A model generated the notes under the pieces. It saw nothing but the letters and a program-made list of their open reading frames with translations. It was not told the DNA's origin and searched no databases. A stretch of DNA of 33,619 bases from Deltaproteobacteria bacterium (lineage in GTDB: Bacteria; Desulfobacterota; Desulfuromonadia; Geobacterales; DSM-12255), in contig JAJZTK010000030.1 of NCBI GenBank assembly GCA_021849045.1, positions 1 through 33,619 on the forward strand. The letters run 5' to 3'. A program made the translations under genes and the position numbers. Of the stretch, positions 19,056 through 25,351 are shown piece after piece (within the stretch, counting starts at the first letter, position 1; each line of letters starts with the position of its first letter).

Positions 19056-19619
19056 TTATCTGACCAGTTTGGACAGCTTCTTGAACTCTTCGGTGCCCGC
19101 CACCCGAAGCAGCTGGAACAGGGCCGCCTCGGTGGAGGTTATGACCGCACCGGCGTCCCGCGCAGCCTCCAGCCCGATGAACCAGTTCTCCTTGCGCCGG
19201 CTCATGACCGCATCGCGAACAACGTGTACGACAAAGCCCGCATCGAGCAGCTGCAGGACGGTCTGGAGCACGCAGACGTGGGTCTCCATCCCCGTGATGA
19301 TCACCTGCCTGCGGCCAAGGATCTTCAGTTTTTCCACAAAGGTATCGTCGCCACAACAGCTGAAGGTCATCTTCTCCAGCGCGGCATCGGTGAGCCGTTC
19401 CGCGAGAACCGGCAGGGTCTCGCCCAATCCCTTCACATATTGCTCGGTAGCCACCATCGGCAGCGCAAGCTCACGGGCCGTCTCCTGAAGGATGACGACA
19501 TTGCCGGTCAACCGCTCCAGAATCTTCTCGTTCATTGCCCGGCAGAGCTTTTCCTGCACATCGATCACCACCAGTACGGCCTGGCTCCTGTCCAGCATGA
19601 ACTTTTCCGCAACACTCAT
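19056..19619 (-). CDS. Isochorismatase-family cysteine hydrolase (YcaC-like)
   Basis: This 187-residue protein starts at ATG 19619 behind AAGGAGAAAG. It belongs to the isochorismatase-like hydrolases, small alpha/beta amidases with a D-K-C triad. Here the triad is D20 (VVIDVQEKL), K83 (LEKMTFSCC) and C116 (GMETHVCVLQTV). The family includes nicotinamidases, N-carbamoylsarcosine hydrolases and YcaC-type enzymes of unknown substrate. Length and the MSRRKENWFIGLEAARDAGA region favour the YcaC-like group. It starts only 30 bp after the NtrC-like gene, so it is probably the last gene of that operon. The substrate is unknown. Confidence 0.88.
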   Translation of the reverse strand: MSVAEKFMLDRSQAVLVVIDVQEKLCRAMNEKILERLTGNVVILQETARELALPMVATEQYVKGLGETLPVLAERLTDAALEKMTFSCCGDDTFVEKLKILGRRQVIITGMETHVCVLQTVLQLLDAGFVVHVVRDAVMSRRKENWFIGLEAARDAGAVITSTEAALFQLLRVAGTEEFKKLSKLVR

Positions 19620-19649
19620 GGCTTTCTCCTTGGTTGATTGTTGAGTGGT

Positions 19650-21089
19650 CTAGTCTTTCTTCACCGGAATCCCCAGTTCCGTAATCCTCTTCCTCAGGGT
19701 ATTCCGGTTGATGCCGAGTATCGAAGCCGCCCGGACCTGGTTCCCCCGCGTCTTTTCCAGTACGAACCTGATAAGCGGCCTCTCCACCTGCTCCAGCACC
19801 ATGGCGTGAACATCGCCGCTCTCCAGCTTGTCCAGATTGATAAGACTGCTCCTGAGTTTCGTCTCCACCAGGCTTTCCAGGGAAAGCTCCTCGCTTGGGG
19901 CCTGACTGCTCCCCTTTTCCCGGCGGAGCCCGGGGAAGTCCGCCACGGTCAGCAACGGGTCGGCAGACAGGATGATTGCCCGCTTGATGGTGTTTTCAAG
20001 CTCCCGGACGTTGCCGGGCCACGAGTAGCCCATCAGGAACTGCATCGCCTCGCCGTCGATCTGCTTGGGCGGAATCTCCAGCTCCGCAGAGGTCTTCTTC
20101 AGGAAGAAATCGGCCAGGAGCGGGATATCTTCGGACCGTTCCCTAAGCGGCACCAGCTGGAGCGGCACCACGTTGAGGCGATAGTAGAGATCCTCCCGGA
20201 ACCCCTTTTCCCGCACCAGCTGTTCCAGCTCCTGGTTGGTCGCCGCCACGATCCGGACATCCACCCTGAGGCTCTGGTTGCCGCCGGTCCGGGTAACCTC
20301 CCGCTCCTGCAGCACCCGCAGGATCTTGGCCTGCAGATCCAGCGGCATGTCGCCGATCTCGTCCAGGAAAATGGTGCCGCCGTTGGCCTGCTCGAACTTG
20401 CCGAGCTTCCGTTCGGTGGCGCCGGTGAACGACCCCTTCTCGAAGCCGAACAGTTCGCTCTCCAGGAGCTCCTTGGGGATGGCGGCGCAGTTGAGGGCGA
20501 TGAACGGCTTGCCGATGCGGCGCGAGTTGAAATGGATGGCCCGGGCGATCAGCTCCTTGCCGGTGCCGGACTCCCCCTGAATCAGGATGGTCATGTCGCT
20601 GGGGGCCACCTTGCCGATGGTCTTGTAGATCTCCCGCATGGCCGGCGAGTTGCCGATGATGTTCTTTTCCAGTTGATAGCGGTCCTTCAGCTCCTCCTTG
20701 AGGACCGCCACTTGGGAAGTCATCTCCCGTGCCCGGCTTACCTTTTCGATCAGGGCGTCAATCACATCCAGATCGAACGGCTTGGTGAGATAGTCGTAGG
20801 CGCCCCGCTTCATCGCCTCCACAGCGTTACGCATGCTCGCTTCGGCGGTCATGATCACCATGAGAAGGTCGCTTCTCACCTCCCGAGCCTTTTCCAGGAG
20901 ATCGAGTCCGGAGATGCCAGGCATCTTGATATCCAGGATGGCCAGGTCGTAGCTCGCCGCCTGGATCAGGCGCAGCGCCTCGTCCCCGTCCCTGGCGAGA
21001 TCCACCGTATACCCTTTTTTGCGCAAAGCCTTGGAAAGGACCCAGCGCATGCTCTCTTCGTCGTCGGCAACTAAAATACGGTTAATCAT
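19650..21089 (-). CDS. NtrC-family sigma-54-dependent response regulator
   Basis: This 479-residue activator starts at ATG 21089 behind CGAGG. A receiver domain (about 1-120) has the phosphorylation site in YDLAILDIKMPGISGLDLLE. The AAA+ domain (about 137-370) has Walker A GESGTGKE and Walker B GGTIFLDEIGDMP. The sigma-54 contact loop reads GSFTGA instead of the usual GAFTGA. A C-terminal Fis-type helix-turn-helix reads VRAASILGINRNTLRKRITE. An extended open frame upstream (to 21158) runs through the intergenic inverted repeat and is not coding. The cognate kinase is directly upstream. By gene order it resembles NtrC, but the regulon (nitrogen or otherwise) cannot be read from the sequence. 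Confidence 0.93.
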   Translation of the reverse strand: MINRILVADDEESMRWVLSKALRKKGYTVDLARDGDEALRLIQAASYDLAILDIKMPGISGLDLLEKAREVRSDLLMVIMTAEASMRNAVEAMKRGAYDYLTKPFDLDVIDALIEKVSRAREMTSQVAVLKEELKDRYQLEKNIIGNSPAMREIYKTIGKVAPSDMTILIQGESGTGKELIARAIHFNSRRIGKPFIALNCAAIPKELLESELFGFEKGSFTGATERKLGKFEQANGGTIFLDEIGDMPLDLQAKILRVLQEREVTRTGGNQSLRVDVRIVAATNQELEQLVREKGFREDLYYRLNVVPLQLVPLRERSEDIPLLADFFLKKTSAELEIPPKQIDGEAMQFLMGYSWPGNVRELENTIKRAIILSADPLLTVADFPGLRREKGSSQAPSEELSLESLVETKLRSSLINLDKLESGDVHAMVLEQVERPLIRFVLEKTRGNQVRAASILGINRNTLRKRITELGIPVKKD

Positions 21090-21099
21090 AAGAACCTCG

Positions 21100-21150
21100 G
21101 TTCGATGTTCGATGTTCGACGTTATAAAACTCGAACATCGAACATCGAAC
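21100..21150. repeat. Perfect 20-bp inverted repeat between kinase and regulator genes
   Basis: The left arm 21100-21119 consists of tandem GTTCGAT-like units and is the exact reverse complement of the right arm 21131-21150, around an 11-nt loop (CGTTATAAAAC). It begins four bases after the kinase stop codon and ends right before the regulator's GAGG ribosome binding site. The transcript would form a 20-bp hairpin with no T-run. Confidence 0.9.
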
Positions 21151-21154
21151 AGCT

Positions 21155-22249
21155 TCATTGAATTAACGGCAGCATCACCGTAAACGTCGTTCCCCTGCCA
21201 AGGTCGGACTCCACCTTCAGCATCCCCCGGTGTTCGGCCACGATCTTCTGACAGATGGCCAGGCCGAGGCCGGTCCCTCGCGCCTTGGTGGTAAAGAACG
21301 GGGTAAACAGGTTGTCCAGCACCTCCGGCGGAATCCCCGGCCCGTTATCGCTCACATCCAGGGCCACCATCCGGGAACGACCCTCCCCCTTCTGGGTCAT
21401 GCTGTAATCGGCCACGATCCGGCTCGTGATCCTGACCATCCCCTCCTCGGCAACGGCCTCCACGGCGTTTCGGATCAGGTTCAGCAGGAGTTGGGTGATC
21501 AGCCCCTCGTCCACCAGGACAGGCGGGATACTCGGGTCCAGGTGCTGCTGGAAGACAATGCTCTTACCAACGACTGCCCGCTTCTGGAGCAGCACCAGAT
21601 CGCCCAGTACCTTGTGGATATTGACCCGCGACAACTGCAGCTTGCGGGGCGCGGCCAGGTGCAGCAGCTCTTCGACTATCCGGTTGACCCGCTTGACCTC
21701 CTTGAGCACCACCCGGATATGCTCCTGAAGTTCCGAATCATCCGACAGCTCCATCTCCAGGAGCTGGGCCGCCCCCGTTATCCCTCCCAACGGGTTCTTG
21801 ATCTCGTGGGCCAGACCGGCGGCCAGGGTACCCAGCGACGACAACCGGTCGGAGTGGCGGACTGCCGCCTCCAGTTCCCGGATGCTGGTCAGATCCCGCA
21901 GCACCACGATGGTCCCGACCCGCTCGCCGCTGCTCATCAGGAGCGGCGAGGTGATGACGCTCACCGGGGTGATCTTTCCCAGCTTGCGCAGCACCACATT
22001 CTCGTGGTCGGCAACGCTCATCCCGGTGGCGGCGGTCTTTTGGACCATCTCCAGCAGCGCCCCCTCCCCCTTGAACAGGGTGGTGAACGGGGCACCATAG
22101 GCCTGACGCCGTGAGACACCGGCAATCTCCTCGGCCGCCGGGTTCATAAGCGTCACCAGACCATCGCGGTCGATGACGACGACGCCGTCGCCCACGCTGT
22201 CGATGACGTTGGAAAAGAACTCCTGGCTTGTGTCAACCCGCTGTGTCAT
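21155..22249 (-). CDS. NtrB-like PAS sensor histidine kinase
   Basis: This 364-residue kinase is soluble, with no membrane segments. It has a PAS domain (about 10-120, VGDGVVVIDRDGLVTLMNPA), a HisKA dimerisation domain with the phosphorylated His in GLAHEIKNPLGG, and a HATPase domain with N-box LIRNAVEAV, G1 DNGPGIP, F-box FTPFFTTK and G2 GTGLGLAI. This is the NtrB/GlnL architecture. Its ATG overlaps the dusB stop codon by four bases, so they are translationally coupled. It should phosphorylate the NtrC-like regulator downstream. The signal sensed by the PAS domain is unknown. Confidence 0.93.
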   Translation of the reverse strand: MTQRVDTSQEFFSNVIDSVGDGVVVIDRDGLVTLMNPAAEEIAGVSRRQAYGAPFTTLFKGEGALLEMVQKTAATGMSVADHENVVLRKLGKITPVSVITSPLLMSSGERVGTIVVLRDLTSIRELEAAVRHSDRLSSLGTLAAGLAHEIKNPLGGITGAAQLLEMELSDDSELQEHIRVVLKEVKRVNRIVEELLHLAAPRKLQLSRVNIHKVLGDLVLLQKRAVVGKSIVFQQHLDPSIPPVLVDEGLITQLLLNLIRNAVEAVAEEGMVRITSRIVADYSMTQKGEGRSRMVALDVSDNGPGIPPEVLDNLFTPFFTTKARGTGLGLAICQKIVAEHRGMLKVESDLGRGTTFTVMLPLIQ

Positions 22250-23211
22250 TGGCCGAAAAACTCCTCCATGGCCGCTATCAGCTCATCGACCGTGGCCAAT
22301 CGATTCACCCGATCCCGAAACTGGGCCGCGCCGGGAATCCCCTTGGCATACCAGGCCGCATGCTTGCGCATCTCCAGCACCGCCACCCGTTCACCGGCCG
22401 TGGCCACAAACAGTTCCAGGTGACGCCGGGCCACGGCCAGCCGCTCGGCCGGGGTCGGCACGGCAGGCTCCTTACCCCGGAGGAGGGCCAGCGACTGGCG
22501 AAACAGCCAGGGGTTCCCCAACCCGCCCCGGGCGATCATCACCCCGTCGCAGCCGGTCTCCGCCAGCATGGCCGTCACGTCGCCCGGCCGGAACAGGTCC
22601 CCGCTGCCGATCACCGGAATGGCGAGGGCCTTTTTCAGCTCCCGGAGACGGCTCCAGTCGGCGCGCCCCTCGAACATCTGGGCACGGCTCCGGGGGTGCA
22701 GGGTCACGGCATCGCACCCCTCTTCCTCGGCGATCCTGCCGATCTCCAGAAAGGTCGGCTCCTCGCAGGTCCAGCCGGTGCGGATCTTGATGGTCAACGG
22801 GAGGCCGGTGGCCCGCCGCACCGCCCTGACGATCGCCCGCACCTTGGCCGGCTCGCGCAGCAGGGCGCTGCCGGCACCGCTCCCCACCACCTTGCGCACC
22901 GGACACCCCATGTTGATGTCGATCAGTTCCCCGTGCCCCTCCACGAGCCGCGCCGCCTCTGCCAGGAGCGACGGGTCGTCGCCGAAGAGCTGTATCCCCA
23001 GGGGCCGGTCCTCGGGGGTGCCGACAATGAGGGCGAAGCTCTTCTGCCCCTCCCGGACCAGGCCGTTCACGCTCACCATCTCGGTAAAGCAGAGCGCTGC
23101 CCCTTCCTCTCGGGCAATGAGCCGGAACGGAAGATTGGTGATCCCGGCCATGGGGGCGAGCAGCAAAGGATTGGTCAGGACCAGGGAACCTATTTTGAGT
23201 GGTTGTGTCAT
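22246..23211 (-). CDS. dusB: tRNA-dihydrouridine synthase (DusB/NifR3 family)
   Basis: This 321-residue FMN enzyme reduces uridines in the tRNA D-loop. The TIM barrel starts with PLLLAPMAGITNLPFRLIAR. The catalytic cysteine is in DINMGCPVRKVVGSGAGSAL. FMN and RNA-binding motifs KIRTGW, TLHPRSRAQMFEGRADW, VIGSGDLF and VMIARGGLGNPWLF are present. ATG 23211 fits the family start, but no ribosome binding site is visible. The open frame extends upstream to a TTG at 23304 without family-like sequence. A hairpin occupies the leader. The dusB-kinase-regulator order matches the nifR3-ntrB-ntrC operons of alphaproteobacteria. Confidence 0.94.
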   Translation of the reverse strand: MTQPLKIGSLVLTNPLLLAPMAGITNLPFRLIAREEGAALCFTEMVSVNGLVREGQKSFALIVGTPEDRPLGIQLFGDDPSLLAEAARLVEGHGELIDINMGCPVRKVVGSGAGSALLREPAKVRAIVRAVRRATGLPLTIKIRTGWTCEEPTFLEIGRIAEEEGCDAVTLHPRSRAQMFEGRADWSRLRELKKALAIPVIGSGDLFRPGDVTAMLAETGCDGVMIARGGLGNPWLFRQSLALLRGKEPAVPTPAERLAVARRHLELFVATAGERVAVLEMRKHAAWYAKGIPGAAQFRDRVNRLATVDELIAAMEEFFGQ

Positions 23212-23228
23212 GGAGCAGAATAAAAGAG

Positions 23229-23261
23229 AGGTGGGGCTCCATTGTATGCGGCTCCCCACCT
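23229..23261 (-). promoter_or_regulatory. Stem-loop in the dusB leader
   Basis: On the minus strand AGGTGGGG (23261-23254) pairs with CCCCACCT (23236-23229) around a 17-nt loop, followed by TCTCTTTTATTC and then the dusB ATG 18 bp on. It may be a terminator for the upstream receiver-domain gene or an attenuator of dusB. Upstream of it, TTGCCT and TAACAT with a 16-bp spacer are a weak promoter candidate (near 23280-23307). Confidence 0.4.
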
Positions 23262-23359
23262 GCTTAATTTTTGGGCATGTTATCACAGCGGAGAAAAAAG
23301 GCAAGATTTTTTCCGCAGCGGTACGCTGAAGAAAAAATGTTTGAAATCAACAGATTGGT

Positions 23360-24097
23360 TCAGGAGCGCCGGCGCAGATAGGCGAGAAACTCGTCGCGGC
23401 TGAGGTCCTTTTTCCGCACCAGGTGCTCCACCTCGCGACTCATGGCGAGTCGCTCCCCCTCCTTCATGGAATCCTTCAGCAGCACGAAGAACGGGATTTT
23501 CCCGGTCTGGGGAAAGAGCTGAAAGCGCTCCAGGAGCTCGAATGCGGACATATCCGGTAGCATGAGGGCCGAGAAGACAAGATAGGGATGGGTGGTAGTG
23601 GCGAGGGCAAGACCCTCTTTACCGGTATAGCCGTTCACCACGCTGAAGCCGAGATGATCGAGTGCCCGGGTTACCCGCTCCTCCCCTTTGCGGGTTACGA
23701 CGAGGGTCTGGAGATCGTAGTCTTCGGTGTCCTCGGTGAGTCCGAACACCGCAAGACGCTCGGCCATATGCTCCGGATCAACCGGGAGAAGAAAGAAGCC
23801 GGCCACCGGAAAGACCCCGCCCACCTTCCCCTTTTCACTGAGGAACACGGGAAGGACCGGAATATTGCGGGTTTCCGGATTCCCCTTGAGGGTCAGAAGC
23901 GTTCCCCAGCCGTCGGCAGAATGGGGCGACAGATCGAGGACAATTCCCAGCGGGCGCTCCTCGGCCAGTTCTTCAATCCGGGCTGTGCGCGCTCGATATC
24001 CTCCTTCGGCCAGATAGCTGCAGATCACCGCACCGCGCTCGATCTGCTCGCCCAGCCCCATCAGCCAGAGTTCCCGTTCGTTGACGGTATCCCTCAT
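23360..24097 (-). CDS. Protein with two degenerate response-regulator receiver domains
   Basis: The start ATG 24097 follows ATGGAGGGG; the open frame continues upstream without a better start. The 245-residue product appears to be two tandem receiver-like folds without an output domain. The first (about 15-120) keeps an aspartate in GIVLDLSPHSADGW, but the usual KP-loop reads LPVDP. The second (about 128-240) has FSALMLPDMSAFELLERF, with Ser where the phospho-Asp should be, although KKD remains near the end. The double acidic pocket is missing in both, so phosphorylation is doubtful. It probably acts as a protein-interaction module. It is upstream of, and co-oriented with, the dusB operon. 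Confidence 0.75.
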   Translation of the reverse strand: MRDTVNERELWLMGLGEQIERGAVICSYLAEGGYRARTARIEELAEERPLGIVLDLSPHSADGWGTLLTLKGNPETRNIPVLPVFLSEKGKVGGVFPVAGFFLLPVDPEHMAERLAVFGLTEDTEDYDLQTLVVTRKGEERVTRALDHLGFSVVNGYTGKEGLALATTTHPYLVFSALMLPDMSAFELLERFQLFPQTGKIPFFVLLKDSMKEGERLAMSREVEHLVRKKDLSRDEFLAYLRRRS

Positions 24098-24183
24098 AGC
24101 GGTGTCACCCCTCCATGCATAACGCTTATTGAATCCTTTATCATACTTTCGGCGCACTGCAACCGAACTTGACCCGTGAGCCG

Positions 24184-24212
24184 TTGAAAATTGGCGTTTT
24201 GTGTGATAGCGT
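24184..24212 (+). promoter_or_regulatory. Weak candidate promoter of the DUF362 gene
   Basis: TTGAAA (24184-24189) and TAGCGT (24207-24212) with a 17-bp spacer lie about 33 bp before ATG 24245 in the divergent gap. The -10 match is poor. Confidence 0.3.
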
Positions 24213-24244
24213 CCTACAATCACCCCGCTATGGAGGAACGCACC

Positions 24245-25351
24245 ATGACAAACAAGGTCTTTTTTGCCGACCTGCGGACCGGTCAAAGGGAAAACCTCTT
24301 CGGGAAGATCGGTCGCCTGATGAAGAGCTGCGACCTCTCAAACCGCATTGCCGCCGGCGACCTGGTGGCCGTGAAGGTCCACTTCGGCGAAAAAGGGAAC
24401 CATACCTTTATCCGCCCTATCTTCATCCGCCGGGTGGTGGACGAGATCCGGTCGGTCGGCGGCCGGCCGTTCCTCACCGATTCCTCCACCCTCTATGTGG
24501 GCGAACGGAAAGAGGCGGTTTCCGCTTTGTCCTGCGCTATCGAGAACGGGTTTGCCTATGCCGTGGTCAACGCCCCGCTGATAATGTGCGACGGGCTCAG
24601 GGGCCACACGGCCGTGGATGTGCCGTTGAACGGTGAGATCCTCAAGAACGTCAGCATCGGCGCCGAAATCATCGAGGCCGACGTCCTGGTGGCGGTCTCC
24701 CACTTCAAGTGCCACGACCTGACCGGTTTCGGCGGCGCCCTCAAGAACCTGGGGATGGGGTGCGCCAGCCGGACCGGCAAGATGCAGCAGCACTCCACCC
24801 TGGCCCCGACCGTGACGGCCGCGTTCTGCAACGGGTGCGGCGCCTGCCTCAAGACCTGCGCCCACAACGCAATAGCCATCATCGAAGGGAAGGCCGAACT
24901 CGATCCGGTCGACTGCGTCGGCTGTGGCCGCTGCGTGACCGCCTGCCAGCAGAAGGCGATCAACGTCCAGTGGAACGAGAACAGTTCGCTGATCATGAAA
25001 AAGATGGCCGAGTACGCCACCGGTGCCGTTGCCGGCAAGGGCGATAAGCTCCTGTTCATGAACTTTATCACCCAGGTGTCGCCGTCCTGCGACTGCTATG
25101 GCCATGCCGATGCGCCGATCGTCAACGACATCGGCATCTGCGCCTCCTGCGACCCGGTGGCCCTGGACCAGGCCAGCGCAGACCTGGTGAACGCGGCCCC
25201 CGGCAACGCCAACACAGCCCTGGCAACCGGGCATGAGCCTGGCGGCGACAAGTTTCGGGGGGTCCATCCGGAAATCGACTGGGAGGTCCAACTGGCCCAT
25301 GCGGAAAAGATGGGGCTGGGAAGCAGGCGGTATGAACTGGTGAAGATCTGA
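24245..25351 (+). CDS. DUF362 protein with two 4Fe-4S ferredoxin clusters
   Basis: ATG 24245 follows TGGAGGAACG; an upstream in-frame extension lacks a ribosome binding site. The 368-residue protein has an N-terminal DUF362 domain (VAVKVHFGEKGNHTFIRPIF; HFKCHDLTGFGGALKNLGMG) and, in the middle, two cluster motifs, CNGCGACLKTC and CVGCGRCVTAC. Both are complete CxxCxxCxxxC sets, so two [4Fe-4S] clusters are expected. A further Cys-rich stretch (SPSCDCYG, GICASCDP) follows. It is soluble and presumably an electron carrier or oxidoreductase; no substrate is known. It may be co-transcribed with hpt 42 bp downstream. Confidence 0.9.
   Translation: MTNKVFFADLRTGQRENLFGKIGRLMKSCDLSNRIAAGDLVAVKVHFGEKGNHTFIRPIFIRRVVDEIRSVGGRPFLTDSSTLYVGERKEAVSALSCAIENGFAYAVVNAPLIMCDGLRGHTAVDVPLNGEILKNVSIGAEIIEADVLVAVSHFKCHDLTGFGGALKNLGMGCASRTGKMQQHSTLAPTVTAAFCNGCGACLKTCAHNAIAIIEGKAELDPVDCVGCGRCVTACQQKAINVQWNENSSLIMKKMAEYATGAVAGKGDKLLFMNFITQVSPSCDCYGHADAPIVNDIGICASCDPVALDQASADLVNAAPGNANTALATGHEPGGDKFRGVHPEIDWEVQLAHAEKMGLGSRRYELVKI

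Follow-up and report, generated by a model that had tools for sequence, protein, structure and literature searches.

A hairpin between an NtrB-like kinase gene and an NtrC-type regulator gene belongs to a REP-like family of dispersed GTTCGAN palindromes

The hairpin that separates an NtrB-like sensor kinase gene from an NtrC-type response regulator gene in the 33,619-nt stretch of DNA analysed here (the window) is a member of a dispersed, non-coding repeat family that resembles REP elements. As the somewhat favoured explanation, we propose that members of this heptamer family arrive by insertion or template switching, are tolerated behind stop codons and drift by slippage, and that the hairpin may slow the ribosome and/or block exonucleases. 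Small intergenic repeats abound in Geobacter genomes, and new testable rules are added here: placement a few nucleotides after stop codons, slippage of heptamers independently in each arm, and replacement of one palindrome by another at the same junction between sister species.

Structure of the kinase-regulator junction

The genes and sequence elements of the junction, all on the minus strand, are as follows.

19650..21089, minus strand: downstream gene, NtrC-type response regulator (receiver, sigma-54 activator and Fis-type HTH; domain matches)
21094..21098, minus strand: GAGGT, Shine-Dalgarno-like sequence of the regulator (by eye), outside both exact arms
21100..21119, minus strand: palindrome arm, the 3' arm in the direction of transcription, NTCGAAC heptamers
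21120..21130, minus strand: 11-nt stretch separating the exact arms, holding part of a third, imperfect heptamer pair
21131..21150, minus strand: other palindrome arm, the 5' arm in the direction of transcription, GTTCGAT twice followed by GTTCGA
21155..22249, minus strand: upstream gene, PAS-HisKA-HATPase sensor kinase, NtrB-like (domain matches)
22246..23304, minus strand: dusB/nifR3 homologue upstream of the kinase, overlapping the kinase start by 4 nt

The regulator scores 546.2 bits against NCBIfam ntrC, just below the cut-off of 558.6, and the dusB/nifR3 homologue scores 350.5 bits against its NCBIfam family, above the cut-off of 293.3; the kinase reaches no cut-off among the 25 NCBIfam families shown. 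The gene order nifR3-ntrB-ntrC occurs in other proteobacteria, and the similar order found here suggests that kinase and regulator form a nitrogen-type two-component pair.

The hairpin takes up most of the 65-nt spacer between the two genes. An inverted-repeat search confirmed the perfect 20-bp repeat of heptamer units described in the first-pass annotation: the two 20-nt arms are 100% complementary and enclose a loop of 11 nt. The hairpin lies 4 nt (21151-21154) from the kinase stop codon (TGA, 21155-21157, minus strand) and 10 nt (21090-21099) from the regulator ATG (21087-21089). Read in the transcribed direction, each side of the hairpin consists of three heptamers; the third pair, GTTCGAG/GTCGAAC, is mismatched at the seventh base and lies partly inside the "loop". 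The spacer folds with -35.1 kcal/mol, which none of 200 dinucleotide shuffles equals, and the 121 nt around the hairpin with -53.2 kcal/mol (z -8.2; 0/200 shuffles as low). The period-7 score of the spacer is likewise reached by 0/200 shuffles. Since no shuffle matches the fold or the periodicity, the hairpin is not a product of chance.

The script found four inverted repeats in the window, and apart from this hairpin none has arms that are periodic throughout. Another long one lies at 2302-2479 of the window, with arms of 23 nt, two mismatches and a separation of 132 nt. An Rfam search gave seven matches up to E 1, all below the gathering threshold; six of them fall at the hairpin itself, all to miRNA families.

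A dispersed family of GTTCGAN palindromes

The first-pass annotation had suggested a REP-like element and had proposed looking for further hairpins of this kind in the genome. Both suggestions were borne out. The pattern GTTCGANGTTCGA, in which the seventh base is free, matches 78 times in the window genome (reversed control 0), clustering into 26 sites in all, and the exact 13-mer GTTCGATGTTCGA occurs 37 times (reversed control 0). G. argillaceus (strain ATCC BAA-1139), the sister species and sole genome of the same genus among the 58 searched, has 51 matches to GTTCGANGTTCGA (control 1) at 18 sites. The palindromes mostly measure 40-85 bp, and their arms are tandem GTTCGAN heptamers paired on opposite strands. 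We take the unit to resemble the T-loop of tRNAs.

Across the order, the exact 13-mer is present in 8 of 58 genomes, the window genome counted. The palindromic pattern was found in 74 stretches of a collection of 84,980 species, against a rough chance expectation of 0.03; by our own count 29 of the 74 come from records titled Geobacter or other Desulfuromonadia, and the remaining ones come from, among others, Nitrospira, Omnitrophota, Acidobacteria, Peptococcaceae, Chloroflexi and Bacteroidota. A full-text search of the paper collection used here found no occurrence of GTTCGATGTTCGA. Two further observations were made. The sequence GTTCGATGTTCGATGTTCGA is carried by 29 viral-contig stretches (L031-L059), several times in some contigs, and these may be host DNA or proviruses. 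The Omnitrophota chromosome CP070780.1 (L186, L195, L212, L222, L232, L242, L245) holds about ten near-alike palindromes of the form GTTCGAGGTTCGACCTC...GAGGTCGAACCTCGAAC, a different-looking dispersed element.

Repeats of a similar kind have been described within the same bacterial group, namely classes 1-3 and a heptanucleotide family in G. metallireducens and palindromes in G. bemidjiensis (PMC2700814, PMC2996986). In the sections of these 2009 and 2010 genome papers drawn on here, multicopy repeats are reported, part of them built of 6-8-nt units and part arranged as opposite-strand pairs, and their function is left open. Like the present family, they have many intergenic copies, differ in their families between species and consist of units of 7 or 8 nt in tandem, which in class 1 form pairs on opposite strands; the window genome holds 26 sites of the intergenic type with tandem units paired on opposite strands. 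The units quoted in those sections differ, being GGACCGG, GTTGCTYN, MTYCTGA and others rather than GTTCGAN. Hence, GTTCGAN may be a further multicopy repeat of the Geobacter type, and the family may already stand in the supplementary alignments of the two papers.

The REP/BIME elements of enterobacteria are, in the part of the source considered, also short extragenic palindromes in polycistronic mRNAs, some of them close after stop codons (446 of 4,072 within 15 nt in E. coli; PMC12306157). The present family shares the multicopy extragenic palindrome; by eye it lacks the GTAG/GGAG foot. It further differs in having no RAYT link at the loci examined, in arms made of tandem heptamers with a free seventh base, and in that 27 of 32 sites lie between co-directional genes and one between convergent genes. 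Heptanucleotide tandem units in intergenic positions are also found in the unrelated Beggiatoaceae and cyanobacteria as TAACTGA arrays; these are direct arrays, which in BOGUAY mostly stand shortly before start codons, and not palindromes behind stop codons (PMC4679880).

Placement relative to genes

We pooled the sites of the window genome and G. argillaceus into 32 non-redundant ones and placed them relative to gene calls from a home-made finder. Beside the 27 co-directional sites and the convergent one, there are one divergent site and three inside an ORF call, so that 29 of 32 lie outside ORF calls. Twenty of the 27 co-directional sites begin 1-15 nt past the upstream stop codon, mostly at 4-6 nt. 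As to the other seven, two overlap an ORF end and five lie at 42-651 nt; one of these distant sites is a GTTCGAN palindrome between two tRNA-Ser genes, present in both species (L166 1416-1481, L075 1975-2019). The window genome also carries copies inside the mraY-murD and nuoD-nuoE operon junctions.

The proximity to stop codons is independent of the gene finder: a long ORF ends within 15 nt at 19 of 31 sites, compared with 146 of 3100 random places. The same holds for other genomes, where an ORF end falls within 15 nt of 29 of 59 elements and of 122 of 2950 random places. This proportion is 13/18 in Desulfuromonadia and near groups, including records titled Desulfobulbaceae and Deltaproteobacteria, and 16/41 elsewhere. 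In three samples of 40-300-nt spacers, inverted repeats were found in 1/7, 7/18 and 6/60 co-directional, 0/2, 1/2 and 3/5 convergent, and 0/2, 0/1 and 0/8 divergent spacers, counts too small for comparing spacer types.

Independent evolution of the two arms

The seventh base is informative about how the arms evolve. Between neighbouring heptamers within an arm it is identical in 73 of 142 cases, against a shuffle mean of 48.2 (1/5000 as high; 32 elements), and between arms it matches in 24 of 90 cases, against a shuffle mean of 30.5 (4762/5000 as high; 32 elements), a test that uses the outer register and fails where one arm has an extra unit, as in L161. A best-register comparison of 30 elements gave 7.0 for an element's own arms and 11.5 for arms dealt among elements (1647/2000 as high); both tests cover the window genome and G. 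argillaceus and count shared sites twice. As judged from these patterns, the arms in this genus evolve apart by heptamer slippage, gaining and losing whole units independently. Heptamers that evolve by slippage, also inside stem-loops, are known from the STRR repeats of heterocystous cyanobacteria.

Because the seventh base is homogenised within arms and uncorrelated between them, exact arms are no evidence of recency, and those of the kinase-regulator hairpin look like chance rather than recent arrival. This copy has two matching GTTCGAT heptamers per arm, which is expected for about 7% of elements (the between-arm match rate squared). The gene conversion that the first-pass annotation had read from the exact arms does not stand either, as own arms are no more alike than those of other elements in the two genomes; with outer- and best-register comparisons in agreement, recent gene conversion between arms is ruled out for both. 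The outer-register comparison found no compensatory change in the core (0/24 deviating unit pairs matched; it fails with an extra unit in one arm), and wobble pairing of the seventh base, which would point to selection on RNA, gave no signal (6 G-U and 8 A-C of 85).

One of the 30 elements, L161 1532-1603 of G. argillaceus (G001:C1:6538), has four identical heptamers in both arms, a variant core included, and is possibly a recently born copy. Since its arms agree in all four heptamers, an element may begin with one arm copied from the other. Beyond the genus, an element's own arms resemble each other more than arms dealt among elements do (46.5 vs 9.9; 0/2000 as high), and the statement on independent arms is therefore limited to this genus. 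We think that this likeness stems partly from mixed lineages and near-identical Omnitrophota copies.

Turnover of sites between sister species

Twelve of the 26 window-genome sites are occupied at orthologous places in G. argillaceus, and the kinase-regulator copy is among them. The surrounding 3-kb stretch is 96% identical between the two species, and the G. argillaceus copy has one mismatch between its arms. The check whether relatives lack the hairpin thus came out negative for the sister species, and the recent acquisition deduced in the first-pass annotation from exact arms lost its footing. Because the same junction is occupied in both, the copy probably predates the species split. In the alignments inspected, which cover most of the shared sites, arms often differ between the species by whole heptamers gained or lost.

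Other sites have turned over. Six are specific to G. argillaceus, and of two examined, one is empty and one degenerate in the window genome; at the empty site CAG stands on both sides of the G. argillaceus element, and the difference may reflect either insertion or deletion. Fourteen sites are specific to the window genome. The two examined are those at mraY-murD and nuoD-nuoE (gene names checked, with NuoD above one of its cut-offs only), where G. argillaceus carries other palindromes, by eye of the GTAGGGGCG and CCCCTCC types, which escape the strict inverted-repeat test. Hence, the counterpart of a site in the sister species can hold the repeat, lack it or carry a different palindrome. The mraY-murD spacer in a wider set of species (L257-L286) contains, by eye, unrelated palindromes of the GTAGGGGCG, CCCCCCTTTGCG and CACAGAG types in different species, and in others of this set it measures 2-40 nt and holds no palindrome.

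The same junction across the order

The kinase was found in all 58 genomes of the order, the window genome counted, and the junction spacer is readable in 56, since two loci stop at contig ends. Eleven spacers are shorter than 40 nt, five of them 4-5 nt long. In 25 of the 56, window genome counted, fold and periodicity are each reached by at most 1/200 shuffles; both tests are run on the spacer as a whole, and the period may lie outside the arms in L106 and L133. Ten of the 45 spacers of at least 40 nt fold like ordinary shuffles (88-176/200 as low), and another ten are intermediate or pass one test only. By eye, the units of the 25 hairpins comprise GTTCNAN (including GTTCGAN), GGGCAAT, GGGTCAA and the hexamer AGGTNN, at least four clearly different ones. 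The distance from the kinase stop codon to the hairpin is 0-7 nt in all 25, although any fold in a short spacer tends to begin close to its end.

The tested units are amplified in particular lineages. AGGTTG arrays number 52 in G019, 4-12 in G013, G016, G021 and G039, and 0 in the window genome; GTTCTAC arrays number 71 in G029, 1 in the window genome and 0 in three g7 genomes.

Alternative explanations

An alternative to a tolerated family member is a post-stop hairpin selected at this very junction for the kinase:regulator ratio, such that any palindrome serves and the unit turns over. The 25 spacers that fold and are periodic beyond shuffles while their units differ by eye speak for it, as does the strict inverted-repeat test, with 13/56 positives at the kinase junction, 1/29 at mraY-murD and 3/21 at nuoD-nuoE (the latter two in the 30 best-matching genomes), a test blind to a mismatch at every seventh base, as in the window genome's own mraY-murD copy. 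However, 11 of the 25 hairpins come from one genus (g14) and largely reflect descent, like elements occupy unrelated operons, and the short spacers and the ten that fold like shuffles indicate that the junction hairpin is dispensable in relatives. We thus regard selection at this junction as rather unlikely. It is similarly doubtful that, in post-stop spacers across the order, hairpins persist while their sequence is replaced, with position and fold selected and the sequence not; and we would give little weight to the related idea that hairpins at ntrB-ntrC-like junctions are repeatedly rebuilt from different 6- or 7-nt units as sequence-free post-stop elements that tune operon expression. An array of sites bound by a protein, DNA-bending or otherwise, has been suggested for paired tandem-repeat sites in G. 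metallireducens (IHF/HU); here it would fit the mostly kept GTTCGA core and the free base between cores, which is unpaired between arms, and a similar architecture is called "global regulator binding sites" in the part of the source drawn on (PMC2700814). Such an array is nevertheless quite unlikely, as one and the same site carries different units in different genera, copy number is lineage-specific for the tested units, and placement tracks stop codons and not promoters, with a single divergent site among 32.

Movement by a RAYT (Y1) transposase would suit an extragenic, multicopy and palindromic family, and Y1 transposase matches exist in 50 of 58 genomes; the window genome has five. Yet GTTC-unit arrays occur at none of the 16 Y1 loci examined, which comprise four of the five in the window genome and 12, a small share, of those in relatives. 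REP elements carry a GTAG/GGAG foot beside the stem; the flanks here show no constant foot of this kind (by eye, no formal count), and the copies vary in length and loop, which makes RAYT movement very unlikely. The first-pass annotation had further proposed that the hairpin could block readthrough. The high stability of the stem (spacer -35.1 kcal/mol) would agree with an intrinsic terminator or attenuator between kinase and regulator, but a T tract is absent, 21090-21154 contains no terminator-like match (the one match in 19400-24500 is at 23504), and termination at the copies within mraY-murD and nuoD-nuoE would shut off genes presumed to be required. As the hairpin does not show a GC-rich stem followed by a T run, the terminator reading was rejected, and an intrinsic terminator or attenuator seems extremely improbable.

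Possible function of the post-stop hairpin

In the favoured explanation of a tolerated, slipping repeat family, copies would arrive via some insertion or template-switch event, be tolerated mainly in the gap between stop codon and Shine-Dalgarno sequence, and then drift through heptamer slippage. No enzyme or insertion mechanism was found for the family. According to the part of the source considered, ribosomes stall in E. coli at REPs that lie no more than 15 nt from a stop codon, and exoribonucleases can be blocked by stable REP structures (PMC12306157). The kinase junction, at 4 nt, and 20 of the 27 co-directional sites fall within this distance. Following the E. coli precedent, the hairpin 4 nt past the kinase stop would slow the terminating ribosome and/or block 3'-5' exonucleases, so that kinase output might be mildly adjusted, being either lowered or sustained by protection of its mRNA. 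The ribosome binding site of the regulator would be left largely open, and transcription would continue past the hairpin instead of being stopped. "Open" is approximate, because in the predicted fold some bases near the regulator start pair with sequence further upstream.

Our best functional guess is post-stop ribosome stalling as in E. coli, with passive tolerance close behind in likelihood: copies may sit near stop codons simply because a short spacer tolerates nothing else. The hairpin is intercistronic, and an effect on the kinase:regulator balance is possible. A special role for the kinase-regulator operon is weakened, because the family also occurs in unrelated operons and between tRNA-Ser genes. 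If the E. coli mechanism applies, the repeats would alter the output of the upstream gene in numerous operons, those for respiration and the cell wall among them.

An in-frame ATG overlaps the kinase stop codon (ATGA), and its frame passes through the hairpin into the regulator (window 21089-21158, minus strand). Counted from this ATG, the regulator would have 502 aa instead of 479 aa, and by eye the frame also looks open in G. argillaceus.
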